Position numbers and translations under genes: made by a program. Positions 3,120-26,296 of a stretch of 57,742 nt of DNA are shown here, piece by piece. The stretch is from positions 1 through 57,742 of the forward strand of contig PXTT01000051.1 in the NCBI GenBank assembly GCA_003022535.1, read 5' to 3'. Each line of letters begins with the position of its first letter. The stretch's first letter is position 1. This stretch comes from Bacteroidetes bacterium QS_9_68_14 (GTDB lineage: Bacteria; Bacteroidota; Rhodothermia; Rhodothermales; Salinibacteraceae). The notes beneath the pieces are model-generated. The model was not told the DNA's origin. It searched no databases and saw nothing but the letters and a program-made list of their open reading frames with translations.

Positions 3120-3566
3120 CTACCCGCTCATGACGCGCTCGGCGAGCGTTTCGTACTCGACGGGCTGCTCGTTCATGTACTGGTCGAAGACCTTGGGCGC
3201 CCAGATCTCGACGTGGTCGAAGGCCCCGATGATGCGTCCTTCCCCGTCGATCTCGGCGAAGTCGATCAAAGGGCTCGGGAGCTTGATGCGGCCCTGCGCG
3301 TCGAGCGCGACCTCCTCGGCCCAGCGCATGATGATGCGCACGAAGTGGCGCGCCTCACGGTCGTAGCGGCTGAGGTTGGCGATTTCGTTTTCTTCCATCT
3401 CGGTCCAGGTGTCCAGCGGGTAAAGGTAAACGCACTGGTCGAAGCCGCGCGTGACCGTGAACGTCCCGTCCGCCTCGGGGCTGAGCTCATCGCGCATCTT
3501 GGCCGGGATGGTGACCCGACCCTTGCTGTCGACGGAGTATTCGGCCTGTCCTTTGAACCCGGCCAT
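3120..3566 (-). CDS. mraZ: Transcriptional regulator MraZ
   Basis: 148 aa; SVDSKGRVTIPAKMRDEL and second AbrB-like repeat DAQGRIKLPSPLIDFAEI; heads the dcw cluster. Confidence 0.95.
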   Translation of the reverse strand: MAGFKGQAEYSVDSKGRVTIPAKMRDELSPEADGTFTVTRGFDQCVYLYPLDTWTEMEENEIANLSRYDREARHFVRIIMRWAEEVALDAQGRIKLPSPLIDFAEIDGEGRIIGAFDHVEIWAPKVFDQYMNEQPVEYETLAERVMSG

Positions 3567-3680: not shown

Positions 3681-3698
3681 TCCCCACTTTTCCCCACG
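3681..3698 (-). promoter_or_regulatory. Putative MraZ operator (two GTGGGGA direct repeats, 10-bp period)
   Basis: Minus strand reads GTGGGGAAAAGTGGGGA about 115 bp upstream of mraZ; matches the GTGGG direct-repeat pattern known for MraZ boxes. Confidence 0.7.
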
Positions 3699-3705
3699 GG
3701 CCTTA

Positions 3706-3734
3706 CAAGGTACGGGTTTTCGGGGTCAAGTCAA
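3706..3734 (-). promoter_or_regulatory. Candidate Bacteroidota-type promoter (TTG-N19-TACCTTG) for mraZ
   Basis: TTG at 3734..3732, 19-nt spacer, TACCTTG at 3712..3706, resembling the -33 TTG / -7 TAnnTTTG pattern; MraZ box lies just downstream. Confidence 0.5.
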
Positions 3735-3826
3735 GGACTAAGCGCCAGAAATGCGCTTTTTTCGGGGTCTCGGCAGGGTGTCCATCGCATGTGCACATGT
3801 GGATATCAGGCGCCTCTCGGGCCTTG

Positions 3827-3844
3827 GGTGAAAACATGTTCACC
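3827..3844. promoter_or_regulatory. LexA-like operator 1 (GGTGAAAACATGTTCACC)
   Basis: Inverted repeat GGTGAA-N6-TTCACC upstream of the lexA-like gene; core GAAA-ACAT-GTTC resembles GAAC-N4-GTTC SOS boxes. Confidence 0.6.
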
Positions 3845-3851
3845 ACCAGAA

Positions 3852-3883
3852 AAGGCGGGGTGAAAAAGTGTTCACCCCGCCTT
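3852..3883. promoter_or_regulatory. LexA-like operator 2 inside a 13-bp-arm perfect inverted repeat
   Basis: AAGGCGGGGTGAA-AAAGTG-TTCACCCCGCCTT; contains the same GTGAA-N6-TTCAC half-sites as operator 1, centres 32 bp apart. Confidence 0.6.
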
Positions 3884-3960
3884 ACGTTGTAGGCCGGGCG
3901 TCCCACATGTGCGCCCCTCGCCTGCCGTCCTCTTCGCCTCTTTCCTTCTCCCCTTCTTCC

Positions 3961-4608
3961 ATGAAAGACCGCCTGACCGAGCGCCAGAACGAAGGCTATG
4001 AGTTTATCCGCTCCCACATGCGCCGCGAGCGCAGGCCGCCGACCCTGCGCGAGATTGGCGAGGCGCTGGGCATCCGCTCGACCAACGGCGTCTCGAAACT
4101 CCTCGACGTGCTCGAAGAGAAAGGCTACGTCGAGCGCGAGCCGCACGCTGCGCGCGGCCTTCGCCTCGTCGAGGAAGAGCGCGCCCCCCTTGCCTCCGGC
4201 GGCGGCGCCCCCGACCTCCCGCTCGTCAGCCGCACGCCCAGCGACCAGCCCGATGAACTGCGCCGCCGCCCGCGCAGCTATCTCGCGGTGGACCCGCGCT
4301 TCTTGCGCAAAGCCGATGACCCGAGGGCGTGCCTCCTCGCCCGTGCCGGCGACGACGGCATGAGCAGCGACGGCATCCGCAAGGGCGACCTGCTCGTCGT
4401 CGAGGAGCAACGCGCCAACGCGCTGGACAACGGCGACATGGCCGCCTTCCTCGTCGGCGAGGAGCTGCGCGCGCGGCGCTTCTACTACGCCAATGGCACG
4501 ATGCACCTGCGCTCGGCCGACTCCCACTATACTGAGGAGACCTATCCGCCCGGCGCCGCCGGCTGCCACCCCGTCGGGCGCGTGCTGGGGCTGTTTCGCA
4601 CGTTCTAA
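3961..4608 (+). CDS. lexA: LexA family repressor, apparently lacking autoproteolysis residues
   Basis: wHTH LTERQNEGYEFIRSHMRRERRPPTLREIGEALGIRSTNGVSKLLDVLEEKGYVERE; C-terminal S24-like fold text GIRKGDLLVVEEQ...VGRVLGLFRTF; see finding on missing catalytic residues. Confidence 0.85.
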   Translation: MKDRLTERQNEGYEFIRSHMRRERRPPTLREIGEALGIRSTNGVSKLLDVLEEKGYVEREPHAARGLRLVEEERAPLASGGGAPDLPLVSRTPSDQPDELRRRPRSYLAVDPRFLRKADDPRACLLARAGDDGMSSDGIRKGDLLVVEEQRANALDNGDMAAFLVGEELRARRFYYANGTMHLRSADSHYTEETYPPGAAGCHPVGRVLGLFRTF

Positions 4609-4804
4609 GGTGCGCAGCCTGCGCGTTGCCCTGTCGCGTTGCCGCCGGTCAGTTCCAAAGCGGCAGATGCTCGTTCAGCACGAGGCGCTCGACGTGCAAG
4701 CCGAAGTCGTACGCCCCGCTGCGAAAGTTCGCCGCAGACAACCGCAACGCCCGCGAGGTGTAATCTTTCGCCCCCTTCTTTTTTCCCTCGTCCCCACAAG
4801 CGAA

Positions 4805-6031
4805 GTGAGCAATCGCATCCTGCTTTTCACCGGCAAAGGCGGCACCGGCAAGACCACCTGCGCCGCCGCGACCGGCCTCAAAGCCGCCCGGCGTGGGCAG
4901 AAGACGCTCGTTCTCTCCTCGGACCCCGCGCACAGCTTGTCGGACGCCTTCGATGCCGAACTGGGCCCGGAGCCGCAAACCGTCGCGCCGAACCTCGACG
5001 CGCAGGAGGTGGACCTCTACTACTCGATGCAGAAGTACTGGGGCAACATGCGTGAACTCATGCTGGCGGTCTTCCGCTGGCAGGGCGTCGAGCAGGTCGC
5101 CGCCGAGGAGCTGGCCGCGTTGCCGGGGATGAACGAAGGGTCGGTGATGCTTTGGCTCGAGAAGTTCTGGGCAGAGGGCGACTACGACCTGATCGTCCTC
5201 GACAGCGCGCCGACCGGTGAGACGCTCACGCTCCTGACACTCCCCCAGGCCACGCAGTGGTGGCTCACGAAGGCGTTCCCGTTTCAGAAAACGGCGTTCA
5301 AGACGCTCGGCTTCGGCGTGCGCCAGGCCACGGGGCTCCCACTGGACAAAGCCTACGACGACCTCGACTACCTCTTCGGCAAGCTCGAACAGATCCAGGA
5401 GGTCCTCGCCGACCCGGAGCAGACGAGCGTGCGCCTCGTGATGAACCCCGAGAAGATGGTCATCCAGGAAGCGCGGCGCGCCTACACCTACCTCCAGCTC
5501 TACGGCTACGGCGTGGACGCGGCCCTCGTCAACCGCGTGTGGCCGGAAGAGGGCGTGGGGCCGGCGATGCAGAAATACGTCGAGGCGCAGCAGGGCTATC
5601 TCGATGAGATCGAGGGCAGCTTCGCCCCGCTTCCCATCCTCAGGGCCCCCCACCTCGGCGAGGAAGTCTTCGGGCTGGAGCGGCTCGAAAAGGTCGGCAA
5701 CGCGCTCTACGGGGCCGCCGCCGAGGGCGACGCGGATACGACCGAGGGCGTCCGTGCCCCCGCTGCGCGCCTGCACCAGTCGCAGACGTACCGCGTGGCC
5801 GAAATGGAGCAGGGCGACGGCTACCGCGTGGAGCTGCACCTGCCGTTTCTGAAAGAGGAGGACGTGGACGTCCGCCAGTTCGGCGACCAGCTCGTCGTGC
5901 AGGTCGAAAATCAGCGGCGGCACTACGTGTTGCCAAACTTCCTCGGCTACTATACTTTGCAGGGCGACCACCTGCGCGAGGACGGCTGGCTGGAGGTACG
6001 GTTTGCGCGAGGCGCGAAGCGAAGAGCGTGA
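4805..6031 (+). CDS. ArsA/GET3-type anion-transporting ATPase with C-terminal HSP20-like domain
   Basis: P-loop FTGKGGTGKTTCAAATGLKAAR, SSDPAHSLSDAFD, DSAPTGETLTLLTLP; C-terminal RVELHLPFLKEEDVDVRQFGDQLVVQVENQRRHYVLP resembles ArsA_HSP20. GTG start in frame. Confidence 0.85.
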   Translation: MSNRILLFTGKGGTGKTTCAAATGLKAARRGQKTLVLSSDPAHSLSDAFDAELGPEPQTVAPNLDAQEVDLYYSMQKYWGNMRELMLAVFRWQGVEQVAAEELAALPGMNEGSVMLWLEKFWAEGDYDLIVLDSAPTGETLTLLTLPQATQWWLTKAFPFQKTAFKTLGFGVRQATGLPLDKAYDDLDYLFGKLEQIQEVLADPEQTSVRLVMNPEKMVIQEARRAYTYLQLYGYGVDAALVNRVWPEEGVGPAMQKYVEAQQGYLDEIEGSFAPLPILRAPHLGEEVFGLERLEKVGNALYGAAAEGDADTTEGVRAPAARLHQSQTYRVAEMEQGDGYRVELHLPFLKEEDVDVRQFGDQLVVQVENQRRHYVLPNFLGYYTLQGDHLREDGWLEVRFARGAKRRA

Positions 6032-12060: not shown

Positions 12061-13272
12061 TTACTGCTCGTCGGCGTTGCCCGCCGCCGCCTCTTTCGCA
12101 GAACCGCCGCCCGTAGCGCCCGAGGCGTCGCTCGCCGGCGTACCCTCCTCCCCGCTGGCAGCGTTGCCTTCTTGCTGCGCCTCGAGGCGCGCCTGGAGCT
12201 CATCGAGGCGCGCCTGGCGCCGCTCCAGCTCGCGCCGCATCTCTTCGAGGTTGTCGTACGTGTCTTCGATGGCGCTCTCGCGGATCTCGAAGTCGGCCTT
12301 TTCCATGTAGCCACGCTCCTCGAAGTACGACTTGAACAGGAAGTTGTGCTTGAGCGCTTCCATGTTCTCCGAGAAGCGGTAGGCGCCCAGCGACGCCCAC
12401 TGCGTGGCGTTCTCCGCGTTTTCGAGCACGCTCTCGATGCGCTGCGTGCTGGCCACGAGCGTGTCGGCCGCCGCGAGGAACTGGTTGTAGGCCGCCTCGT
12501 CGTTGAGCAGCTTCCCGAGCGTGCCCTCGCCCTGGTTCACCTTGCTCAATATTCGCTGGAGGCGGGCAGTGGCCTCCTCCGCGCTGGCGGTGATGCGGTC
12601 GGCGCTGGCCGAGAGGTCGGTCATGAGCTGCTGCGTCTCGGCGGCGGTGGCCTCGGCCTGCTCGATAGTCGCCACGCTGCGGTTGTAGAGCGCGTCGTCG
12701 TAGATGAAGCGCCCCAGCGAGCCGCGCCCGCGCTGAATGTCCTGCATGATCTGCTTCGCCTCCACGGCCACGGTGGCGAAGGTGTCGACCGTCCCCAGCA
12801 GCTGGTCGCTCGTCTCCGAGATACTAAACGGCTCCTGCCCGCGAATTTGCGGGGTTCCCTCCTGCGGATCGACCGGCTCGAGGTCGTCCGGCGCCATGCC
12901 CTGCCCGGCCAGTTCGCTCTGCGAGGGGTTCACCAGCACGACCATCATGTTACCCCCCACCAGGCTCTGGCTCTTGATCTGCGCGATGGTGCTGTCGTTG
13001 ACGACCCCCTGGTAGTTATTTTTGATGGCCATCTCCACCGTGAAGCGCCCGCCCGGGTCGTCGGGAACGGCGATGCCCTCGACGCGCCCGGCCCCGGCCC
13101 CTTGGTACTGAACCGGGGCCCCCACGCTCAGGCCGGCGAGGTTGTTGAACTCCGACTCCAGCGGGAAGGTGTTGCTAAAGAGAAACGACCGGCTGGCAAT
13201 GGCAAAGAGTGCCACCAGAAAGAGCGCCAGCCCGGCGAAGACGAGAATACCGACGCGCGCTTGCCGAGACAT
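12061..13272 (-). CDS. mlaD: MlaD/MCE-domain lipid transport protein with long helical C-terminus
   Basis: N-terminal TM then FNNLAGLSVGAPVQYQGAGAGRVEGIAV (MCE domain), long helical region; next to MlaF and MlaE homologues. Confidence 0.88.
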   Translation of the reverse strand: MSRQARVGILVFAGLALFLVALFAIASRSFLFSNTFPLESEFNNLAGLSVGAPVQYQGAGAGRVEGIAVPDDPGGRFTVEMAIKNNYQGVVNDSTIAQIKSQSLVGGNMMVVLVNPSQSELAGQGMAPDDLEPVDPQEGTPQIRGQEPFSISETSDQLLGTVDTFATVAVEAKQIMQDIQRGRGSLGRFIYDDALYNRSVATIEQAEATAAETQQLMTDLSASADRITASAEEATARLQRILSKVNQGEGTLGKLLNDEAAYNQFLAAADTLVASTQRIESVLENAENATQWASLGAYRFSENMEALKHNFLFKSYFEERGYMEKADFEIRESAIEDTYDNLEEMRRELERRQARLDELQARLEAQQEGNAASGEEGTPASDASGATGGGSAKEAAAGNADEQ

Positions 13273-13379
13273 GCTTGCGTGGAAGCCTGGGAGAAAGGAA
13301 ACGGCCTGCAGGAGGGAACGCTTGCCGACCGAGCAACGCCCTCTTCTGGGCCCTGGGCTCACCCCATCCTGCCGAACCC

Positions 13380-14234
13380 CTAACTTCCGAAGAAGTTGCG
13401 AAGCACCGGGTGGTTGGAGCGCTCGAGGGCCTCCAGCGAGCCGCTTTCGATAATCTCACCCTCGTAGATGAAGTGCGCTCGGTCGGCGATGATATCGGCG
13501 CAGAGCAGGTCATGCGTAATGGCCACCGAGCTGATGCCTCGCTCGTCGCGCAGGCGTACGATCAGCTCGCTGACGGTGCGCACCGAAACGGGATCCAGGC
13601 CAGTCGTCGGTTCGTCGTAGAGCAGGATCTCCGGCTGCAAGATGATCGCGCGCGCCAGCCCGATGCGCTTCTGCTGGCCGCCCGACAGCTCGGCCGGGAA
13701 CTTCGGCGCCGTGTCGGCGAGGTTGACCCAGCTGAGCGTTTCCTCGATGCGGTCGGTGCGCTCCCCTTCAGAGAGATCGGTATGGCGGTTCAGGAAAAAG
13801 TTCATGTTCTCCTCCACGCTCATCGAGTCGAAGAGCGCCCCGCCCTGAAAGAGGTAGCCAATGGAGAGGCGCAGGTCGTCGAGCTCGTCGCCAGTCATCT
13901 CGTCCACGCGCTTCCCTTTCACCCAGGGCTCGCCGTGGTCGGGCGTCAACAGCTTCACGATGTGCTTCAGCAGCACGCTCTTGCCCGCGCCCGAGCCGCC
14001 CATCACGACCGCCGAGGTGCCCTTCTCGACCGCCAGGGAAGCGCCGTTCAAAACGTTGAGGTCGCCGAAGGACTTGTGCAGGTCCCGCAGCTCGATGATC
14101 GTGTCCTCGGGCGGCGGCCCGCTGCCGACCTCGGCCACGCGGTTGGGCGCGAGCTCGCCGTTGCCAGCGTGGTCCTCGCCGGGCTGCTCGCCGCGGGGGC
14201 GTTGCGCGCCGCCGGTCGCTGCACGTTCAGCCAT
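13380..14234 (-). CDS. mlaF: MlaF-type ABC ATPase
   Basis: VVMGGSGAGKSVLLKHIVKLL (Walker A), LSGGQQKRIGLARAIILQPEILLYDEPTTGLDP (signature, Walker B). Confidence 0.93.
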   Translation of the reverse strand: MAERAATGGAQRPRGEQPGEDHAGNGELAPNRVAEVGSGPPPEDTIIELRDLHKSFGDLNVLNGASLAVEKGTSAVVMGGSGAGKSVLLKHIVKLLTPDHGEPWVKGKRVDEMTGDELDDLRLSIGYLFQGGALFDSMSVEENMNFFLNRHTDLSEGERTDRIEETLSWVNLADTAPKFPAELSGGQQKRIGLARAIILQPEILLYDEPTTGLDPVSVRTVSELIVRLRDERGISSVAITHDLLCADIIADRAHFIYEGEIIESGSLEALERSNHPVLRNFFGS

Positions 14235-14252
14235 TGTGGGGGGAAGTGATTA

Positions 14253-15059
14253 TTAATGGTCAGTTGTGGAAGGGGGGGGGGGCATCAGCGAGATGCGCAC
14301 GACGATCACGTCGGCCAGCAGGATCAGTAGCGAGGAGACGACCACCGCGCGCATCGCCGCCTGGCCTACCTCGCGCGTGCCGCCGCGCACGTTGTAGCCG
14401 AGGTAGGAGCTGACAATGGCGACGATGAACCCGAAGATGCTCGTTTTCATCGTGTCCACGAACAGGTCGGCGAATCGGATCGTCGAGAAGGCGGTGGTGA
14501 AGAACACACGATAGTCCATGCCGCTGGCGATGAGCGACTCGAAGTACCCGCCGATCATGGCGATGGTGTCGGCCCAGATGGTGAGAACCGGGAAGATGAA
14601 CACGCAGGCGACCACGCGCGTGACCACGAGATAGTGAAAGGGCTTCAAGGCGGCCACCTCCAGCGCGTCGATCTGCTCGGTTACGCGCATCGAGCCGATT
14701 TCCGCCCCGATTCCCGCCCCGAGGCGCCCGGCCAATACCAGCGACGTAAAGACCGGCCCGATCTCCTTGATGATCGAAAGCGCCAGCATATTGGGCAGGG
14801 CGTACTCCGCGCCGTAGGCCGCGAGGGTCCCACGGCTCTGCATGGCCATGACGATCCCGATGGCCAGCCCCGTCACGCTGACGAGTAGGAAGCTGCGCGC
14901 CCCGACCTCATCCATCTGTTCGAGCGTCTCCTTCCACTCATACGGCGGCTTCCAGAAGCGCGCGAAGAACTCGCCGACGAAGGAAGCCAGCTCCCCGGTG
15001 CGCTCCAGGCCGTTGGCAAGGGCGCTCCCGCGTCCGGGCAGGAGATTGGTAAAGCGCAT
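14253..15059 (-). CDS. mlaE: MlaE-type ABC permease
   Basis: Family text ALSIIKEIGPVFTSLVLAGRLGAGIGAEIGSMRVTEQIDALEV and GYNVRGGTREVGQAAMRAVVVSSLLI. Confidence 0.93.
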   Translation of the reverse strand: MRFTNLLPGRGSALANGLERTGELASFVGEFFARFWKPPYEWKETLEQMDEVGARSFLLVSVTGLAIGIVMAMQSRGTLAAYGAEYALPNMLALSIIKEIGPVFTSLVLAGRLGAGIGAEIGSMRVTEQIDALEVAALKPFHYLVVTRVVACVFIFPVLTIWADTIAMIGGYFESLIASGMDYRVFFTTAFSTIRFADLFVDTMKTSIFGFIVAIVSSYLGYNVRGGTREVGQAAMRAVVVSSLLILLADVIVVRISLMPPPPSTTDH

Positions 15060-15227
15060 TGCTCGCGTGCGAGAGTGCGGGGGTACGGGAGTGGGGGGGA
15101 GTGTTCGTTATCTCTGTGAGAGCGTGGCCCGGGCCTGCGGCGCACCGGTAGTGCCGCGGGCAACGCTTTTAGAGAAGCGGAAGCGCCGCGGTATGGGTCG
15201 CTTCCACCTCTCTGCACTCCCGCGTTT

Positions 15228-18200
15228 CTAATAAGCGTACTCGTAGCGCAGGTTCAGGCGGATGGACTCGCGGCGCAGCAGGCGCACCAGAAGGCCCTCG
15301 GTTACTTCGTACTGAATCGTGACCTCCGTCTGGATTCCGGCGTCGCCCGCGTCGCCGGCGGCCGCCCCGAGCGGCTGGCCGACGGCCACGAAGAACGGGT
15401 TCGGCAGCACGCCAGAGTAGATGTACTCCCCGGCCGTGAGCACGGTGCCGCGTTGCGGGTTGGTCCGAATCTCGATCACGTCCAGCCCCACTCCCTGCGC
15501 GCTAGCGAACCCTTCCACGAGGTTGGAAATCTGGCCGAGGGCCGCGCCGGTGGCCAGGCTGGTGGCGCCCCTCCCCCCAGCGCCAGTGCGCGCGCCGGCC
15601 GGCTGCCCTGTGGCAATGTAGGAGAAAATGTCGGTCGTAGACATCGGCGTGCTGGAGCCGAGCTCGAAGTTGAGGTCGCCGGGACGCCCGCGCACCGCCA
15701 GGGTAATCGTCACCTCGTTGCCGCGCGACTGGCGGGCCTGCACGTTGTACTCCGCCTCCAGGTCGATGGACGGGTTCGCGGGGTTGCCGTTGAAGGTGAT
15801 AACCCCGCTGGCGATCTCGAAGCGCTTGCCGAACTGGACCACGCGGCTCCGCTCGGGCACAACCTCGATGGACCCGAAGAGCTGAAGGTCTTCCTGCGCG
15901 TCTTTCCGGAGGTCGATGTCGCCCTCGAGCTGCACGTCGAGCTCGGGGTTGGCCGTCGAGCGCAGCCACGTGTCGCGCTCGATTTCCATGTCGAGGTTCA
16001 TCGCCAGCGCCTGGTAGACCTGCGAGCGGGTCGTGTCGGCCTCGGTGACGCGCACGCCGAAGTTTTCGCGCAACGCGCGCAGGTCCTGCTCCCCCAGGGT
16101 GGCCTCCGCGTAGTTGCTTTCCCCGCCGCGCAGAGCATCGAGGTAGAGGTCCGCGTCGCGCACCGTCAGGTCCCCGCGCAGAACCGGCGCCTGCGTGGTC
16201 CCTTGCAGCCGGAGGTCGCCGCTGGCGGTGGCGCGGTACCCGTCGGTTTCCACCGCGCGGAAGTTGCTCGCCCGGGCAGTCAGGTCGAGCTGGCCGAGCG
16301 TGAGCTCCTGGAGGGCCACCGTGCCGTCGATGGTGAGGCGCCCGTCTCCCGCTTCCACGACGGCGCGCTCGACCTGCACCCGGTCGTCGGTGAAGCGGAG
16401 CTGGGCGCGCACGTTCTGGTAGGCCGTCCCGATGTTGGCGAGGTCGAAGGTGCCGCCGGCCAGCGTGGCCGTGCCCCGAAGCTCCGGCGCGCCGAGCGTG
16501 CCGCCGAGCACTCCCTCCAGCCCCTCGTAGCCGAAGAGGTCCGCCACCGCCCCGATGCGAAACGCCTCGATGGTGACGACGAGGCTCTGGCGCCCATCGA
16601 AATCCACCACCCCGTCGGCAGCGATCTGCTGGCCGCCTTCGGTGAAGAGCAAAAGGCCCGAGACGCGGTACTCCTCGCCGTAGGAGATCGTCGCGTCCTG
16701 GAGGAGCTTCCAGCGGTCGGACCCGGAGCGCACGTTCAGGGTGTCGAGGCGCACGCGCTGGGCCTCGGGGCGCGGGTCGACCACGCCGGCGAGCTGAACG
16801 TCGCGCTCCGGGTCCACCTTCGCGCGAAGGCGGAGGTCGATGTCCTTCCCCCCGTAGATGGCGCTCACGTCTGCCCGGCGCACCGACGCCTGGCCGCTGG
16901 ACAGGTAGCCGGCCTCTCCGCGCACCTGCGCGTCGCGGAGCGCCTCCACGCCGCGTGCGGCGAGCGCCCGGGCCGCTGGTAGCAACCCGCCCGCCCCCGT
17001 CGAGCCGCGCGCTGTGGCGGCCGTGGCGCGCACGGCCCCGTCGAAGCTGGACACGCGCGTGTCGCCGTAGACGAGCCCGGCGACGTTCACGTCCGACTGG
17101 AGGCGGAGCGGCCCGCCCGGCTGGCCGGCGAGGCGCCCCTGGAAGCGGTTCCCTGCCACCGCCAGGGCCGCGAGGCTGTCGCCGAGGAGCGGGCGCACCG
17201 GCGCAAGGGTGTCCACACTGGCGGTGAAGCGGAAGTTGGAGGCGTATCGCTGCCCCGGGTCGTAGAGCGCGAGCGGGCCGCTGCCGGTCGCGTCGGCCAC
17301 GTTGGAGCGCACGGCGAGCGTGTCGACCACCAGCAGGCCCTCGTTCAGATTGTAGTCCAGCAGCAGGCGTTGCGCGCGGATGCCGACCGCGCGCCCGCCC
17401 GTGAGCCGAATGCGCCCCTGCGAGGTGGCCGTGCGCGGGTCGGTGCCCTGGCCCCGCACGTTGAGCGAGAGGGAGAGCAGCCCCGCGCGCGCCCCGTCGC
17501 CGAGGAGCTGGCCGACGCTCAGGCTGTCGAGGATGCCCTCGGCGCGGTACGAGAGCCGGCCGCCCGTCTGGTCGAGGCGCGCCTGGACGTCCGCACGCCC
17601 GCCGCCCTCGAACCGCAGGTCTGCCGCCAGGTCCGTCACGCCCTCGCTAGCGTCGAGGTCGAGCGTGCCACGGGCGATCGTCGCGTCGTTGATGCGCGAG
17701 CCCGTCAGGTCGATGCGCGCGTTGCCGCGAAGCTCCTCCAGCGAGAACCCCTGGCCTTCGAGCGACCGGATCTCGCCCTGGAGGTTTGTGTCGAGCCCTT
17801 CGACCCCCGCCAGCGCGCCTACGTCAATTCCCGAAAACGTACCGCTCGTGACCGCGAAGGTTGGATCCTCGGCGAAAGGCCGCCCCGTCCCGGCGAGGCG
17901 CGTCTGCCCCTCCGGCACCTCGAGCGTCCCGTCGTAGGCGAGGCGCCCGCCCGAGAGCGTAATCTCGACGGTCGCGCTCTGGATGATCTGCCGGTTCAGA
18001 CGCGAGGAGTCCAGCCGCGCAGTTCCGGCCAGCGACATCGTCTGCGGGTCCAGGCCCTGCCCGTCGAGCGTGACGCTTCCGTTCAGGCTGCTGGACTGCT
18101 CGACGTCGCCGCCGCGGTATTGGCCAAGCCGCCCGATGTTCACGTCCTGGAACGAGGCGCTTCCCACGCTGAACGATGGCGTGGCCGCGAACGGGTAGAC

Positions 18201-20239
18201 GACCGCGTTGCTCAGAGCGAAGGAGCCGCCCTCCAGGTCGGCCTGCCCGTCGAGGGCCACGCGCCCCCCGGCGACCGCCGCGTCGAGGTTGGTCGCGTTG
18301 ATGACGTAGGGCCCGTAGTACGAATCGGTGAGCTGGAGGCCGGCCACGTCCAGGCGCAGGTCGCCCTGCGGGGTGGTGCCGCTCCCGTCGAGGCGAAAGG
18401 TGCCCGTGATCGACGAGCGCGTCGTGTCGCCCGCCAGCGCGGCCACGTCGAGGTTCTGGACGCGCCCCTCGCGGATCTGGTAGCGCACCGGGTCGGCGGT
18501 GAGGGCCACGCGCCCGTCTACGTCGGCGGTGCCCTCGGGAGAGCGCACGCGCGCCTGCAGGCGCAGGCCGCCGTCGATGAGGCGCGCGGTAAACTGCCCT
18601 TCGTCGATCGCAAACCGGTTGACGCGCGAGCCGCCCAGCCGGAGCTGCGCAGTCACGTTGGCCTCGGCCACGCTCGTGCCGTAGCCTTCCACGCTGAGGC
18701 GCCCGTCGAGGTCGCTCCTCTGGCCGCTGCCTTCGGAAAAGCGCGCGAGGTCGAGGTTCTGAAAGCGCCCGTCCAGGTCGTAGGCCGGCGGCTGGCCGAA
18801 GGGGCGCACCGTGCCTTCGGCGGCGAAGGACGCCCCGCGCAGCCCGCCCTGCGCATCGAGCACCACCGTGCCGTCGCCCGGAAAGCGCGCGTCGAGGGTC
18901 GTGCGGTCGAAGAGGTACTCGCCGACGCGCGTGTCGAAAACGGCCGCACGGGCAGTGCCTTCGAGGGTTTCGGCAGAGGTCCCGCTGAGGTCCACCGCCA
19001 CGTCGCCGTTCACTTCGCCGACGGGCGCCCCCTCCATGAGAAAGCCGGGGTCGAGGCCGCGCACCTGCCCGTCGAGGTCCGCCCCCAGCGGCGCGTTGCC
19101 GAAGCCCGTGGCCACCGTGCCGCTGAGGGTGGCCGTCCCCCCGTCGCTGAAGGTGGCGTCGAGCGTCGGCCGCAGCCGCTCGCTCGTCCCGGCCACGCCG
19201 AGGTCGAACCGCACGCTGCGGCTCGGGTCGATGTTCGGCACGAAGCCGGCCAAGTCACGGAAGCTCAAGGGATCGGCGTTGAGCCGGAAGTCGATGTTCT
19301 GCACCGGCCCGCTCTCCGCGTCGGGAAGCAGCAGCGTGCCCTGCCCGCTCACGTCGCTGTACGGGGAGTCGAGCCCGAGATTGCGCAGCGTGAGCGTGCG
19401 CTCCGCCCTCCACCGAAGTTCATGTCGGCGGCGAAGAACTCGAGGCCCCGCGCGCGCAGGGTCGAGTCGGTCCCGTTACGGGTGTGGAAGCGGGCGTCGA
19501 GCCGTCCGCCCCGCAGGCGCACGCTGTCGAGGCGGACCGTCCAGGCGCTGGCGGTGGTATCCGCCGTGTCGTTCACGAAGGGCTGGAGCAGGTCCCACGA
19601 GCCGTCGGCCTGCTGAGCCATGCGCACGTCGGGGCCAAAGACCTGCCCTCCGCTCAGGTGCACGCGGTTCGAGAGGAGCTCGAGCAGGCGGTAGTCGCTG
19701 TTGAGCGAGTCGATCTGGACCATACGCACCGAGTCGGGCGCAGTGCGCGGCGCGGGGCCGGGCGCGGCGGGCACCTCGTCGGAGGGCGTAAGCGGGCGCA
19801 CCCCGAGAGTACTTCCTTGCTTCGCTGCGGGGCGCACGAGACGCACGCCCTTCGCCTCCAAGTGGGTGATCCAGTTGCCGTCGAGGTCGTCGATCTGGAG
19901 CTGCGCCTCCCCGAGCGGGTTGACCTTTGCGAGGATCAAGTCTTTGGCCGCGCGCGAGCCCCACTCCGTCTGCAACAGCAGAAGCCCTACGCCCAGCAGC
20001 ACCAACACCGCCGCCACCAGCCCGCCGAGGCCGTAGGCAAAGCGCTTGGCCCCGCGCCACGCGAGGGCGGCGCTGCCCGGGCGCTCCTCACGCTCCTGCT
20101 GCGTGGAGTCGCCCTTGGGTCCGCTCTCCGAGGCGTGGCCGCCGGCCCCTTCTTCGCCCGCCGACGCGCCGGGGCTGTTCCCGCCGGTTGCGTCGGCGGA
20201 CCGGTCGCGGTCAGGTCGGTCGCGGTCGGGAGAAGGCAC
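15228..20239 (-). pseudogene. tamB: TamB-family (DUF490) protein split into two ORFs by a 1-nt frameshift near 19406-19408
   Basis: N-terminal ORF 19349..20239 (TM anchor, AsmA-like N-terminus) and ORF 15228..19352 (repetitive beta, C-terminal TamB domain FEIASGVITFNGNPANPSIDLEAEYNVQ). Restoring one G gives GGG-AERTLTLRNLGLDSPYSDVSGQGTLL. Could be a sequencing error. Confidence 0.8.
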
Positions 20240-20396
20240 AGGCGTTGCCGATGAGGGAATCAGAGGGCGGGCACGGCTGTCGTGCCCTCACGTCAAGGGG
20301 CGCGTGCGGCAGATGCCCGAAGAACCCGTCTGCGTGCAAAACGACCGCCGTCCGCGGTCCACCGTTGAACGCCACAGGCATTCAAGCCACAGGCGT

Positions 20397-22655
20397 TCAA
20401 AACGACTGCCCGATGCTCAGGTGCAGGCGCAGGCGGCGCCAGAAGCGCGCGTCGGGGGCGTTGCACCCGCCGGTGCCTCCTGCCCGGCACTGCCGGTACT
20501 CGAAGACCTCCTGGGGGTCGCGCAGGTCTTCGAAGTCTGGGTTGAGCTTGTAGGCCAGGTCCAGGCGCAGAAAGCCCACGGGCGTGCGGTAGCGAAGGCC
20601 CGCCCCCGCCCCGTAGCGAAAGTTCGCAAGCGAAAACTGGTCCAATGCCTGCTCGGCCGCGGGCACGGGGCTCTGGGCGTTCCACACCTGCCCGCCGTCG
20701 AGGAAGGCCGCGGTGCCCCAGCTTTCGCCCAGGCCGGGAAAGGGCATGCGCAGCTCGGCGCTGAGGGACACCTTCGCGCGCCCGCCAACGGCCTCGTAGA
20801 CGTAATCGGGGTTGTCGGGCTCCGACTCGTAAACCACCTCGCGCGCGACCTTGGGGCCGGCCAGGCGCTCGACCCAGCCGCGCACGTCGCTGGCGCCGCC
20901 GGCGTAGTAGTAGACCGGGTCGAAGCGGTTCTCGAACGTCGTAAACGCCTCGCCCGCCGGGTCCCCCAGCGCGCGCCGGCTCCGGCCGTAGGGCCACACG
21001 CGCCCCCCTTGCACGCGCCCGGCGAGGCTGGTCCCGTCGGTGAGCGGCTGATAGCCGGTCAGCTGGGCGCCGGCCTTGACGTACTCGGTGCCGGAGCGGA
21101 TGGGCAGGTTCAGCCCCGCTTGCACGAACGGACGCACCAAGAAGCCGCGGCTGGGGCTTACGTAGTCGTCGGCGCGGCCCAGCGTGGCGCTGGCCGTGAG
21201 CACGCTGCGGTTGAAGATGTCGCGCGTGCGCTCCGGCTGCACGCCTGGCACGCCCTCGCCCGGCTCCGGGGGACCTTCGCGCAGGTCGGTGCGAAACTGA
21301 AACGCGCGCGTTAGCTCGTACTCGAGCGTGACCGTGCGGTACGGGAAGAGCTCGTAGACGGCCGTCGCGTTGAGCCCCACCTCCGCAGAGTTGGTGCCCA
21401 GAAAGCGGTCCGACTTCAGCAGCTGCGGGTTGCTGCCGAACTCCCCGAAGACCGTCCCTACGCCGCTGAGCTTGGTGGTGAAGAGGTACGGCTGGCGCAC
21501 CGAGGCGCTGGCGCGAAAGAGGCGCTCGGCCGCCACGCGGTCGGCCCCGCCGCGCGCGCCGAAGCCGGTGTTGGCCACGAGGCTGAAGCTCAGCTCGCGC
21601 GCGTCGCCGAGGAAGTTGCGGTGCGTCCAGCTTCCTTGCCCCGTCAGGCCCAGGGCGCGCGAGTAGCCGCCCTCGGCGGTGAGGTAGCGCAGGCTCGCCT
21701 CGCGCACGTTGTAGCGCACCGTCACCGTCGAGTCGCGCGGCTGCCCCTCCGGCACCTGCGCGAGGGCCACGCGAAAAAGCTGGAGCCCGAAGAGCTCGCG
21801 TTGTCCTCGCGCCAGCGCCTCGGCGTCGAACCAGTCTCCCTCCGCGAAGGGCAGCTCGCGCAGCACCACGCTCCGGCTCACCGACTCGTTGCCCTCCACG
21901 ATAATCGAGTCGATTCGCGCGCGTGGCCCTGCATCGAGGAAGTAGTTCAGGTCCGCCGTGTTGGCCGAGGAGTCGATCTCGACGGCCGAGCTGGTGCGGG
22001 CGAACGCGAACCCCTGGTTTTTGAGCTCTTCCAGAATGCCGCTTTCGATCTGTGAACGATTGAACTGATTGTAGCGGTCCCCGAGCCGGAAGTCTCGGCT
22101 GTCGCGGAAGTCGTTCCAGCTTTCGCGGATCTCGCCGGTGAACTGCTGCCCGGCGTAGGTCGTCGAGTCCGGACCCAGGAAGTTCACGTCCTGGATAATC
22201 AGCGGCGGGCCTTCTTCGATGGAAAAGACTACGTCGATCTCGTTGGCGGCGGTGTCGAGCACCGTCGGGCCGTAGCTGATCTTCGGTTTCAGAAAGCCGT
22301 TTTGCTGGTAGTACTGGCGCAGGCGCGCCACGTCGCGTTGCAGTTCGAGGGGCGAGAACGGGTGCGGCGCCACGTCCAGGAAGAATGAGAGCGGCGGCGT
22401 CCCCCTCGCCTTGTCGTAGAGCGAGGGCCCCTCGGTAGCCACCTGCGCGGCGAGCTCGCTTTCGCTGAAGGTCTGTGTGGAACGGAAGCGAAAGTCAACG
22501 TCGCCGGTGGTCGTGTTCTCGTTGACCCGGAAGAGCGGCACGCTTTCCTGCGCGGTCGCGGGCGGAGCCCCCAGCGCCAGCCCCCCCAGCAGCAGCAACG
22601 CGGCGACCGGCCCGGCGGCGGCGGGCCACGACAAGGCCAGACGACAGCAGCGCAC
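20397..22655 (-). CDS. BamA/TamA-family outer-membrane beta-barrel assembly protein
   Basis: Signal peptide, POTRA-like domains (IDSIIVEGNESVSRSVVLRELPFAEGDWFD), C-terminal barrel ending in aromatic F; directly upstream of tamB. ORF track extends to 24611 but coding ends near the GTG at 22655. Confidence 0.87.
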   Translation of the reverse strand: MRCCRLALSWPAAAGPVAALLLLGGLALGAPPATAQESVPLFRVNENTTTGDVDFRFRSTQTFSESELAAQVATEGPSLYDKARGTPPLSFFLDVAPHPFSPLELQRDVARLRQYYQQNGFLKPKISYGPTVLDTAANEIDVVFSIEEGPPLIIQDVNFLGPDSTTYAGQQFTGEIRESWNDFRDSRDFRLGDRYNQFNRSQIESGILEELKNQGFAFARTSSAVEIDSSANTADLNYFLDAGPRARIDSIIVEGNESVSRSVVLRELPFAEGDWFDAEALARGQRELFGLQLFRVALAQVPEGQPRDSTVTVRYNVREASLRYLTAEGGYSRALGLTGQGSWTHRNFLGDARELSFSLVANTGFGARGGADRVAAERLFRASASVRQPYLFTTKLSGVGTVFGEFGSNPQLLKSDRFLGTNSAEVGLNATAVYELFPYRTVTLEYELTRAFQFRTDLREGPPEPGEGVPGVQPERTRDIFNRSVLTASATLGRADDYVSPSRGFLVRPFVQAGLNLPIRSGTEYVKAGAQLTGYQPLTDGTSLAGRVQGGRVWPYGRSRRALGDPAGEAFTTFENRFDPVYYYAGGASDVRGWVERLAGPKVAREVVYESEPDNPDYVYEAVGGRAKVSLSAELRMPFPGLGESWGTAAFLDGGQVWNAQSPVPAAEQALDQFSLANFRYGAGAGLRYRTPVGFLRLDLAYKLNPDFEDLRDPQEVFEYRQCRAGGTGGCNAPDARFWRRLRLHLSIGQSF

Positions 22656-22831
22656 CACGAGCGTACCGCGAGTTCGGAGGCGAGAGCAACGGGGAGGAGC
22701 CGCCCCGGAGGCGGCCGTTCCAGAGGCGCCCTTGAAGGTAGAGAAACGCGCCGGCAAGCAGGAAGCACCGGCGCGTGGGACGTCCTCCCCAGACTTCCCG
22801 CGCAATCCTCGTGCCACCGAACGGGCCGCGG

Positions 22832-24025
22832 TCACGACGCCCCTTGCTCCGGCGGGGACTCGCGCGGCGGAGACGGTGCCTCCGGGGCCGCGCTTTCCGC
22901 GTCGTCGGAGGGCGGCGCGGGCCTGAGCTCGGCGCGCTCGATGTCGAGCGGGGCATCGAGTGGGTCGTGGTCCGGGCGGCGCAGGCGCTCGCGGGGCGGA
23001 GTCTCCGGCTCGGGAGCGCGCGCGCCCGGCGCCCCGTCGCCGAGGGGCCGCTCGCGCGCGGCGGCCTCGAGCTTGTCCCCGGAGGGCGTCGTCCAACCGC
23101 TGTCTTCGCGGATGCGTCGCCGCTGTTCGTGGAGCGAAGCCACCACCGCGCCGACCATCAGCACGATGCCAGACCAGTAGACCCAGAAGACGAACGCGAT
23201 CAAGAGGCCGAAGCTGCTGGTGAGGGCCGCCACCCCGCTGCCGTCGCCCTCGAAAGGAAAGGTGCCCACGTAGGTGGCGTAGAGGGCAAAGCCGTACTTG
23301 GCCGCTTCCCAGAGCACCGCCGTGACGAAAGCCCCGAGGGCCGCGCTGGTCCGGGGGGGGTGCGGCACCGGGGTAAAATAGAACAACTGGAAGAACATCG
23401 CCGCGCTTACCAGCAGCGGCACCAGCAACGAGAGCGCGTCGAACACCCCGCGCCAGCCGGCGCGCAGCCAACGCTCCAGGCCCCACTGGCGCATCAGCTC
23501 CAGCCCCTCGGCGTTGAGGGCCTGCGCCAGAAAGGAGAGGCTCACCGTCAGCAGAAAGAGCCCGCCCACTTGCGCCACCATGCGCAGGTCGAAGGCGTAT
23601 CCGCGGAGGATGGAGCGCTCTTCGTTCCAGTCTTGCTCGAAGGCGCTGGCCACGGCCAGGCGCATCGTCGTCGCCAGCGTCATGGCCGCCAGCACCAGCC
23701 CCACCGTCCCGATGCTGATGAAGGCCCCGCTCGACCCCTGAAAGACGCCCAGAAAGTCGATCACCTTCTGGCTCTGGTACGGCGGCAGAAACCCGCGCAC
23801 CACGCGCGCCACCGCCGAAAACGGCTCCCGGTAGCGCAACACGCTCCCCAGCACCCCCGTCAGCAGGATGACGATGGGCACGATGGTAACGAGAACCTTG
23901 AAGGCGATGGCCTGCGCGAAAAGGAAAACGCGCTTGGAGTTCAGCTCGCGCCAGAGGCCGTCGGCGTAGTAGCGCGGCATCGGCTGCATGCGCGCCCGGT
24001 AGGGCTTGTCCAAGTTGCTGCTCAT
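22832..24025 (-). CDS. YihY/virulence factor BrkB family membrane protein
   Basis: LNSKRVFLFAQAIAFKVLVTIVPIVILLTGVLGS, FQLFYFTPVPHPPRTSAALGAFVTAVLWEAAKYGFALYATYVGTF, WVYWSGIVLMVGAVVASL. Confidence 0.9.
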   Translation of the reverse strand: MSSNLDKPYRARMQPMPRYYADGLWRELNSKRVFLFAQAIAFKVLVTIVPIVILLTGVLGSVLRYREPFSAVARVVRGFLPPYQSQKVIDFLGVFQGSSGAFISIGTVGLVLAAMTLATTMRLAVASAFEQDWNEERSILRGYAFDLRMVAQVGGLFLLTVSLSFLAQALNAEGLELMRQWGLERWLRAGWRGVFDALSLLVPLLVSAAMFFQLFYFTPVPHPPRTSAALGAFVTAVLWEAAKYGFALYATYVGTFPFEGDGSGVAALTSSFGLLIAFVFWVYWSGIVLMVGAVVASLHEQRRRIREDSGWTTPSGDKLEAAARERPLGDGAPGARAPEPETPPRERLRRPDHDPLDAPLDIERAELRPAPPSDDAESAAPEAPSPPRESPPEQGAS

Positions 24026-24217
24026 GACGGGCAGGCCGAGCAGAGAAAAGAAGCGGCGCTGGGGCGGTCACGCGGCACACGAAAGCCGTCGGCGAACCCC
24101 CATGCGAGGTCTTCGCATACGCCGAGCGCCGCCTGCTCGGTCCGGTCTGGCGGATTGCGACGCTCCCTGACCGCACCTCCCGCACGCAAGCGTTCCACAC
24201 GACCTGCGTAGCGCCCT

Positions 24218-24436
24218 TCACGAGTCGAGCCCTTTTTGCTTCTGCTCGGCGACGTCCGTCTGGTTGTAGACGGTCCGGCGCACGGCCAGCGGCACATCGA
24301 TGCGACTGAACGCCTTCGGCGTTCCTCCATGCCCGGTGACGACGACCGTACCGCAGCCGAGGAGGCGACCGAATATTCCCTGCCTGATGTCCAGCCCTTC
24401 CAGCTTCGAGAGCGACAGTTCGTACGTGCATCTCGA
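24218..24436 (-). pseudogene. 5'-truncated remnant of a bacterial PH-domain (bPH_2-like) protein
   Basis: Minus-strand reading RCTYELSLSKLEGLDIRQGIFGRLLGCGTVVVTGHGGTPKAFSRIDVPLAVRRTVYNQTDVAEQKQKGLDS-stop resembles the end of bPH_2 proteins; no start or N-terminal part before clpX begins 58 bp further on. Confidence 0.6.
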
Positions 24437-24493
24437 ATCGCATCAACGCGGCGTGCAGCGACGGCCTCTGCGCCACGCTCCCTGCGCTCGCGC

Positions 24494-25867
24494 TCACGCC
24501 CGCCGCGCCCACGGCCGGTGGGCGGGGTCCCCCGTGGGCTCGCCGGGCTCCGCGAGCGGCTCGTACACGGGCGCGCCTTCCCCCTCCACCACGCCGCGGG
24601 TGATGCGGCAACGCGCCGGCTTCGACGACTGCCGGTGCAGTTCGAACGTCACGTCGAGCATGACCTCTTCGAGCACAGCTTTGAGGCCACGCGCCCCGGT
24701 GTCCAGCGCCTGCGCGCGCTCCACGACCGCCTCCAGGGCCGCCTCGTCAAAGACCAGCTCGAACCCGTCGAGGGCGAAGCGCTTGCGGTACTGCTTGACC
24801 AGCGCGTCGCGGGGCTCGGTGAGAATGCGCCGCAACGCTTGTTTCGAGAGCGCCTCCAGCGGCCCGATCACCGGCAGCCGCCCCACCAGCTCGGGGATGA
24901 AGCCGTAGTCGAGCAGGTCCTCGGGCGTGGCCTCGAAGAGCAGGTCGCGCCCCTCTTCTCCTCCGGCCGCGCTGTTGCCACCGGCCTCCGCGCGCTCCCC
25001 TGCGTGCGGCGTGGCGCGGAACCCGACCTCCGCCTGGCGCGAAAGGCGTCGTTCCACGACCTCCTCGAGCCCGTCGAAGGCCCCGCCGCAGATGAAGAGA
25101 ATACCCGTCGTGTCGACCTGCACGAGCGGCTGCTCAGGGTGTTTGCGCCCGCCCTCGGGCGGGACGCCGGCGATCGTGCCCTCCAGGAGCTTCAAGAGCG
25201 CCTGCTGCACGCCCTGCCCCGAGACGTCACGCGTGAGGGAGGCCCCGGCGCGGCGGCGGGCGAGCTTGTCGACCTCGTCGAGGTAAACGATGCCACGCTC
25301 GGCGCGGTCGGTGTCGAAGTCCGCCGCGTGCAGGAGCTGCGACAGGATCGACTCGACATCTTCGCCGACGTAGCCGGCCTCCGTCAGCGTGGTGGCGTCG
25401 GCGATGCAGAAGGGCACGTCCAGGAGCCGCGCGAGGGTGCGCGCCAGCAGCGTCTTGCCCGTGCCCGTGGGGCCCAGGAGCAGCACGTTGGCCTTTTCGA
25501 GCGTCACATCGCGCAGGTCGCCCTCGGCCGCCGCGCGTTGCGCATGGGCTCCTTGCTCCGTTTCCTCGGCCGCAGCGCGCACGCGCTTGCGGTGGTTGTA
25601 GACGGCCACCGACAGGATTTTCTTGGCACGCTCCTGCCCCACGACGTGCTCGTCGAGGCGCTCCTTGAGGCGGTGCGGTGCAGGGAGCGGCCCGTCGAGC
25701 CGGCGGGCCGCCGCGCGCTCTTGCTCGCGCTCTCCGCTCACGATGCCCGCCGCGTCGCTGATGCAACGGTCGCAGATGTACACGTCGGGGCCGGCCACCA
25801 GCGAGTCAGTCTCGCGGGCGGGGCGCTCGCAAAACGAGCAGCGTGGCGTGTCGCTGGGGGAAGGCAT
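24494..25867 (-). CDS. clpX: ATP-dependent Clp protease ATP-binding subunit ClpX
   Basis: Zinc finger CSFC...ICDRCI, Walker A LLLGPTGTGKTLLARTLA, pore loop GYVGEDVES, RKH-loop GGRKHPEQPL, VGF loop. Confidence 0.93.
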   Translation of the reverse strand: MPSPSDTPRCSFCERPARETDSLVAGPDVYICDRCISDAAGIVSGEREQERAAARRLDGPLPAPHRLKERLDEHVVGQERAKKILSVAVYNHRKRVRAAAEETEQGAHAQRAAAEGDLRDVTLEKANVLLLGPTGTGKTLLARTLARLLDVPFCIADATTLTEAGYVGEDVESILSQLLHAADFDTDRAERGIVYLDEVDKLARRRAGASLTRDVSGQGVQQALLKLLEGTIAGVPPEGGRKHPEQPLVQVDTTGILFICGGAFDGLEEVVERRLSRQAEVGFRATPHAGERAEAGGNSAAGGEEGRDLLFEATPEDLLDYGFIPELVGRLPVIGPLEALSKQALRRILTEPRDALVKQYRKRFALDGFELVFDEAALEAVVERAQALDTGARGLKAVLEEVMLDVTFELHRQSSKPARCRITRGVVEGEGAPVYEPLAEPGEPTGDPAHRPWARRA

Positions 25868-26296
25868 GGGGGGCGGGCCGAAAGGCGCGGGTAAACGAAC
25901 GGCTTCCAATGCGCCGAAGGACTTCCATGATAGGCCCTGGTACGCCCGTCGCGCAAGCGCATGCCGCTCGCGCCTCCGGTATCGCAGAGAGGCAAGCTGT
26001 CGTAGACGTGCGAGATGGTCTGTGGGACCGGCGTTTGGCTTTCCTGAAGACCTCCGCCTACCGCACACAGAAAGTGGCAGATGGGGAGATCGTGGGTGGA
26101 GGCGTGCCTGCTGTCGCTCTGGGGGTTGGCAAACCGAGTACCGTCTACCATCGGTCATCTACCGTCGGGATCCGGCGCTCGATCTCACAAGTGCAGGGCC
26201 AGAAGCCACGCCGCTCCGCGAACCGTGCCCGCTGCACTGCGTGGGGACACGGGCAACGCGCCTCCTCTTTTCCGCGCCCCGCTTCCGGCTTCTTCG

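Follow-up and report, generated by a model that had tools for sequence, protein, structure and literature searches.

A LexA paralogue without self-cleavage determinants is conserved beside mraZ in a Rhodothermales-type order and probably represses from the mraZ intergenic region

The mraZ-linked locus

The window analyzed here (the whole 57,742-nucleotide stretch of DNA from Bacteroidetes bacterium QS_9_68_14) carries at 3961-4608 (+) a gene for a 215-amino-acid LexA paralogue that lacks the cleavage determinants. The protein consists of a winged helix-turn-helix (wHTH) domain (residues 4 to 66) and an S24-like domain (about residues 104 to 208). The divergent gene at 3120-3566 (−) is mraZ, the first gene of the dcw cluster, after which come rsmH and ftsL. 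A probable mraZ core promoter (−35 TTGACT, 16 nt, −10 TACCTT) was recognized by eye at 3707-3734 (−), and a TGTCAA-type motif recurs in relatives; a sigma-70 consensus scan of the mraZ intergenic region found no promoter. Probable MraZ boxes (TGGGGAAAAGTGGGG), also read by eye, lie at 3682-3697 (−) and match the known type of MraZ box. Two conserved palindromes, putative operators 1 (GGTGAAAACATGTTCACC; 3827-3844) and 2 (GGTGAAAAAGTGTTCACC; 3859-3876), are found in the same intergenic region.

Linkage to mraZ is a general property of the gene. A search by protein similarity alone, made without reference to mraZ, found 47 loci, and mraZ was divergently adjacent in 45 of them (the exceptions being L012 and L033). 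The converse search took mraZ as its starting point in 30 genomes that had no clear orthologue; it yielded two more divergent copies, both in family f5, and none outside f5. On the other side of the lexA-like gene, the next gene downstream in the window (4757-6028, +) encodes an ArsA-type ATPase with a C-terminal HSP20-like domain (PF02374, PF17886). Farther along, a run of envelope genes at 12064-26158 (−) comprises MlaD, an ABC ATPase, MlaE, TamB and Omp85, followed by a ClpX-type protein.

A LexA fold without the autoproteolysis residues

The preliminary description of this DNA considered the wHTH domain to be LexA-like, and the protein indeed scored above the cut-offs for both LexA_DNA_bind (PF01726; 69.7 bits) and Peptidase_S24 (PF00717; 48.3 bits) in Pfam. 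The top PDB alignments were to Escherichia coli LexA structures. An AF2 model built from five input sequences had a mean pLDDT of 63.7, with low confidence in the C-terminal half; using Foldseek, this low-confidence model matched LexA (E = 5.5e-12), and its C-terminal domain matched Mycobacterium tuberculosis LexA with a TM score of about 0.73 by target length. Foldseek also returned a weak match to PDB 4n31, a SipA-type inactive signal-peptidase homologue. The SipA type has a related fold in which the catalytic dyad has been lost and functions in pilus assembly; these homologues are not known to bind DNA, whereas the LexA-like protein is predicted to. By its fold and domains (PF01726 plus PF00717 and the Foldseek matches to LexA folds), the protein therefore belongs to the LexA family, while its score of 102.3 bits against the NCBIfam LexA equivalog TIGR00498 falls narrowly below the cut-off of 110.95 bits.

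To compare the active sites, we use E. coli LexA numbering for residues 84, 85, 117 to 122 and 156. In the alignment to E. coli LexA, the scissile Ala84-Gly85 is replaced by Ser94-Asp95 (4240-4245, +), the motif G-x-Ser119-M by Asp131-Asp132-Gly133-Met134 (DDGM; 4351-4362, +) and the catalytic Lys156 by Arg172 (4474-4476, +). The nucleophile Ser119 itself corresponds to Gly133 (4357-4359), and its flanks are altered too, with G117 and M118 both changed to Asp (AGDDGM). The substitutions of the cleavage site, the nucleophile and the general-base Lys that had been proposed from the sequence thus all hold in the alignment, and the protein lacks each of the three hallmarks of a self-cleaving SOS LexA (Ala-Gly, Ser119 and Lys156).

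Conservation across the order

Homologues with 40 to 81% identity are present in many genomes of the Rhodothermales-type order, the nearest being those of the Bacteroidetes bacteria QS_8_68_28 (81%) and SW_4_67_19 (75%). When 146 genomes of the class were searched with a profile, matches of at least 142 bits were confined to the order. The next matches dropped to 82 bits, a score that belongs to a divergent mraZ-adjacent copy (G086); the rest were mostly canonical LexA. In a maximum likelihood (ML) tree, all 44 members fell on one side of a branch (support, 98/99), apart from the recO-linked canonical LexA.

The substitutions recur across these 44 relatives: Asp117, Met120 and Arg156 are invariant (44/44 each), Asp118 is found in 41/44 and Gly119 in 41/44 (Ser in two and Ala in one), and Ala-Gly is missing from the scissile columns throughout the mraZ-linked clade. 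We also looked for a Ser and a Lys in the positions of the canonical dyad; in the ungapped alignment, nearly every relative has Gly and Arg at these two sites. As Asp117 and Arg156 are invariant at the old active site, they suggest a structural salt bridge in its place. Two mraZ-linked relatives in family f5 (L116 and L137; G086 and G114) have Ser119 (DDSM) together with Arg156 and an Ala-Pro at the scissile position.

Judging by the comparison with the two nearest relatives (dN 0.119/dS 0.400 and dN 0.168/dS 0.432; dN/dS, 0.30 to 0.39), the mraZ-linked gene is under purifying selection. The same values, taken with the 44 relatives, ruled out decay in a single genome or an assembly error. Nevertheless, some genera have no copy of the gene or a broken one (G004, G005 and G012, with a TGA in G006 and a truncation in G121), which indicates that it is not essential. 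The G006 copy (L030/L115) has its TGA inside the frame and is preceded by an 836-bp intergenic region in which the operators are still present; the G121 copy (L114) is a short truncated frame.

Canonical LexA in the same genome and order

The genome to which the window belongs, probably that of a Salinibacter-like member of the Rhodothermales, is 56% complete and comprises 76 contigs. On contig C1, adjoining recO, it holds a second LexA with the ISAG, SGPSM and SLKR motifs intact. The absence of a canonical LexA from this genome is thereby ruled out. The presence of this Ala-Gly/Ser/Lys LexA, which the preliminary description had left to be sought, and the clade-wide loss of the determinants both favor one of the views put forward there, namely, that the 3961-4608 protein is a repressor not induced by self-cleavage.

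The two proteins represent separate lineages. With the canonical recO-linked LexA of the order and that of Balneolaeota (PMC7739468), the 3961-4608 protein shares the wHTH and S24 domains and the LexA fold. The canonical protein, unlike the mraZ-linked one, retains A84, G85, S119 and K156 (29/29 recO-linked LexAs of the intact families in the alignment), has another recognition helix and a direct-repeat box of the ACACAT type, and neighbors recO. The 3961-4608 protein lies outside the recO-linked clade (98/99), and the palindromes upstream of its gene differ from the canonical LexA box.

The canonical lineage itself is not uniform. No recO-type LexA was found in the Rhodothermus-like f3 genomes checked (G028, G042, G052, G069, G076 and G130), where the sole LexA found is the uncleavable mraZ-linked one. 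In families f10 and f13, there are recO-linked LexAs without Ala84, Ser119 and mostly Lys156 (L090, L131 and L134-L136; G035, G047, G057, G139 and G159), so that a cleavable LexA appears to be absent from these genomes as far as the two lineages considered are concerned. A palindrome of the GTGAC-N8-GTCAC type, which differs from both LexA-type motifs, was seen 5′ of recA at L059, L060, L066, L070 and L073.

A phased operator pair in the mraZ intergenic region

The palindrome GGTGAA-N6-TTCACC is exact at both 3827-3844 and 3859-3876, and the two copies are 32 bp (three helical turns) apart. Allowing up to two mismatches, the window contains five matches, compared with 1.13 expected, a count that was not attained in any of 100 shuffles. 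Families f1, f3, f6, f7, f8, f10, f12 and f13 all have such pairs between mraZ and the lexA-like gene. G028, G033 and G037, which are complete genomes, had palindromes with up to two mismatches nowhere but at the mraZ-linked locus, and some other genomes had a few extra matches, at about the frequency of a reversed control pattern. In a second genome set, searched with at most one mismatch, every match in nine genomes was at the mraZ-linked locus, and three genomes with a diverged motif had no match at this threshold.

The distance between the operators is 32 bp in most cases and 22, 31, 33, 41, 43 or 54 bp elsewhere, corresponding to approximately two, three, four or five helical turns. This phasing differs from that of random spacings (P of about 0.0001 to 0.006, depending on the assumed period); the test was run on distinct spacing values, as related genomes share spacings. 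Spacings near whole helical turns point to two dimers binding cooperatively on one face of the DNA.

The palindromes also vary together with the protein. Recognition helices with STNGVxK or a close variant go with the site GTGAA-N6-TTCAC, while f5 proteins, with the helix SVTSAVK or STTSAVR, have GTGTA-N6-TACAC as the best site (three genomes). This covariation suggests that the neighboring LexA-like protein is what binds the palindromes. We rejected MraZ as their ligand, as TGGGG repeats of the MraZ type are located elsewhere (3682-3697), beside mraZ. The putative operators are closer to the start of the lexA-like gene than to the probable mraZ promoter and lie about 95 to 130 bp beyond the latter, a geometry that does not by itself require mraZ to be controlled from them.

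Proposed function and alternative explanations

The explanation that we consider probable is a noncleavable, autoregulatory, LexA-derived repressor dedicated to the mraZ intergenic promoter. The gene would descend from a LexA paralogue lineage that became fixed beside mraZ in the order. Its S24 domain would have been kept for dimerization, with the Ser-Lys dyad giving way to an Asp-Asp-Gly/Arg arrangement. Two dimers would occupy the two in-phase GGTGAA-N6-TTCACC operators near the start of the gene, and autorepression by a constitutive, dimeric repressor would be the main effect. The expression level of the divergent mraZ/dcw cluster, which is likely under the control of the LexA-like protein, may depend on the operators as well. 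Release would not proceed via RecA-stimulated self-cleavage, and candidate routes are promoter competition, dilution, proteolysis, and a ligand or modification. We infer binding, repression and control of mraZ from the observed sequence changes, conservation and synteny and from the conservation, phasing and near-exclusive location of the operators.

A first alternative connects the locus to the SOS response: the cleavable LexA would bind ACACAT-type boxes on the flanks and so repress the lexA-like gene, DNA damage would release the gene, and the paralogue would then repress mraZ/dcw, slowing division. The LexA of Balneolaeota binds a direct repeat, TTACACATATTTTWTACATA, that has been validated by EMSA, and the de novo motif that we found 5′ of the canonical lexA (ACACATGTTtCACACA) resembles it (PMC7739468). 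Among the 28 intergenic regions from families f1, f4, f7, f8, f10 and f12, 26 have CACATAT or CACATGT elements flanking the operators (shuffle expectation, about 0.07 per region), as do none of the 12 regions of f3 and f13; canonical LexA was not found in the f3 genomes checked, and f13 has lost the box at its recO-type lexA. The counts in other small groups are 0/1 in f6, 1/2 in f15 and 0/2 in f5. In the window, a possible canonical LexA box, GCACATGCGATGGACA (3779-3794, −; 8.5 bits), with similar sequences in the two nearest relatives, and a second, half-site-like flanking element, CCACATGTGC (3903-3912), which is CACATAT in relatives, are suggestive only. On the other hand, the flanking elements are mostly half-sites, the full-motif score is modest in the window and nonsignificant in several f1 genomes, and f3 and f13 amount to just two independent events. 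We therefore regard control of the lexA-like gene by canonical LexA as a minority possibility, and we give the relay as a whole the same modest credence. An elaborated scheme, in which a damage-to-division relay runs from the cleavable LexA through the noncleavable paralogue to the two in-phase operators at mraZ/dcw, pacing division, and in which the protease site has been rebuilt around Asp117 and Arg156 as a structural or sensing site, strikes us as distinctly speculative.

Alternatively, the repressor could be homeostatic and purely autoregulatory, with distant targets overlooked by a search for strict palindromes. Strict palindromes do occur only in the upstream region of the lexA-like gene itself, but the linkage to mraZ has been kept over many families, which favors a local target, and we consider this reading unlikely, if less so than the elaborated scheme. 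Gene breakage and loss in some genera would also fit a decaying, functionless paralogue, a reading made highly improbable by the open frames across the order, the low dN/dS against the nearest relatives, the invariant residues and the conserved operators. Hardest to credit is self-cleavage through shifted residues, which the preliminary description had allowed for: Ser135-Ser136 do adjoin Met134 in the 3961-4608 protein, but Ser is found at position 121 in just 9/44 relatives and at position 122 in 2/44, Lys156 is replaced by Arg in all of them and the scissile position lacks Ala-Gly.

Relation to known systems and significance

The LexA of Synechocystis sp. PCC 6803 has neither the Ala-Gly nor the nucleophile Ser and is an established non-SOS regulator, acting globally on motility, salt stress and fatty acids, with phosphorylation suggested as a means of control (PMC4759255, PMC7567884). 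The 3961-4608 protein fits this type in lacking Ala-Gly and Ser, a likeness at the functional level; unlike the Synechocystis protein, it accompanies a canonical LexA in most genomes, as a second one, and has one strict-motif locus, which is linked to mraZ. A 2021 study described a noncanonical Bacteroidetes LexA with a CI-like HTH (PF01381) and intact cleavage residues and mentions neither Salinibacter, Rhodothermae nor mraZ (PMC8565304). Both that protein and ours are S24-family repressors of the wider group, but the 3961-4608 protein has PF01726 instead of PF01381 and has lost the cleavage determinants, which places it outside the noncanonical type. A search of the open-access literature found nothing on LexA in Salinibacter or Rhodothermus, nor on a LexA adjacent to mraZ. 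Uncleavable LexA is already known, while no description was found in that literature of an mraZ-adjacent paralogue that is order-wide and has an operator pair to itself.

The mraZ-linked protein appears to be a natural, order-wide LexA that has been uncoupled from self-cleavage in hosts that mostly carry a cleavable version too. Synteny and operators tie its gene to the cell division cluster. For the Rhodothermus-like G028 group, where the uncleavable copy alone was found, annotation of a classical LexA-controlled SOS response should be avoided. The locus makes it possible to test how a LexA repressor may work once its switch is lost and whether control of the LexA type may extend to the dcw cluster.
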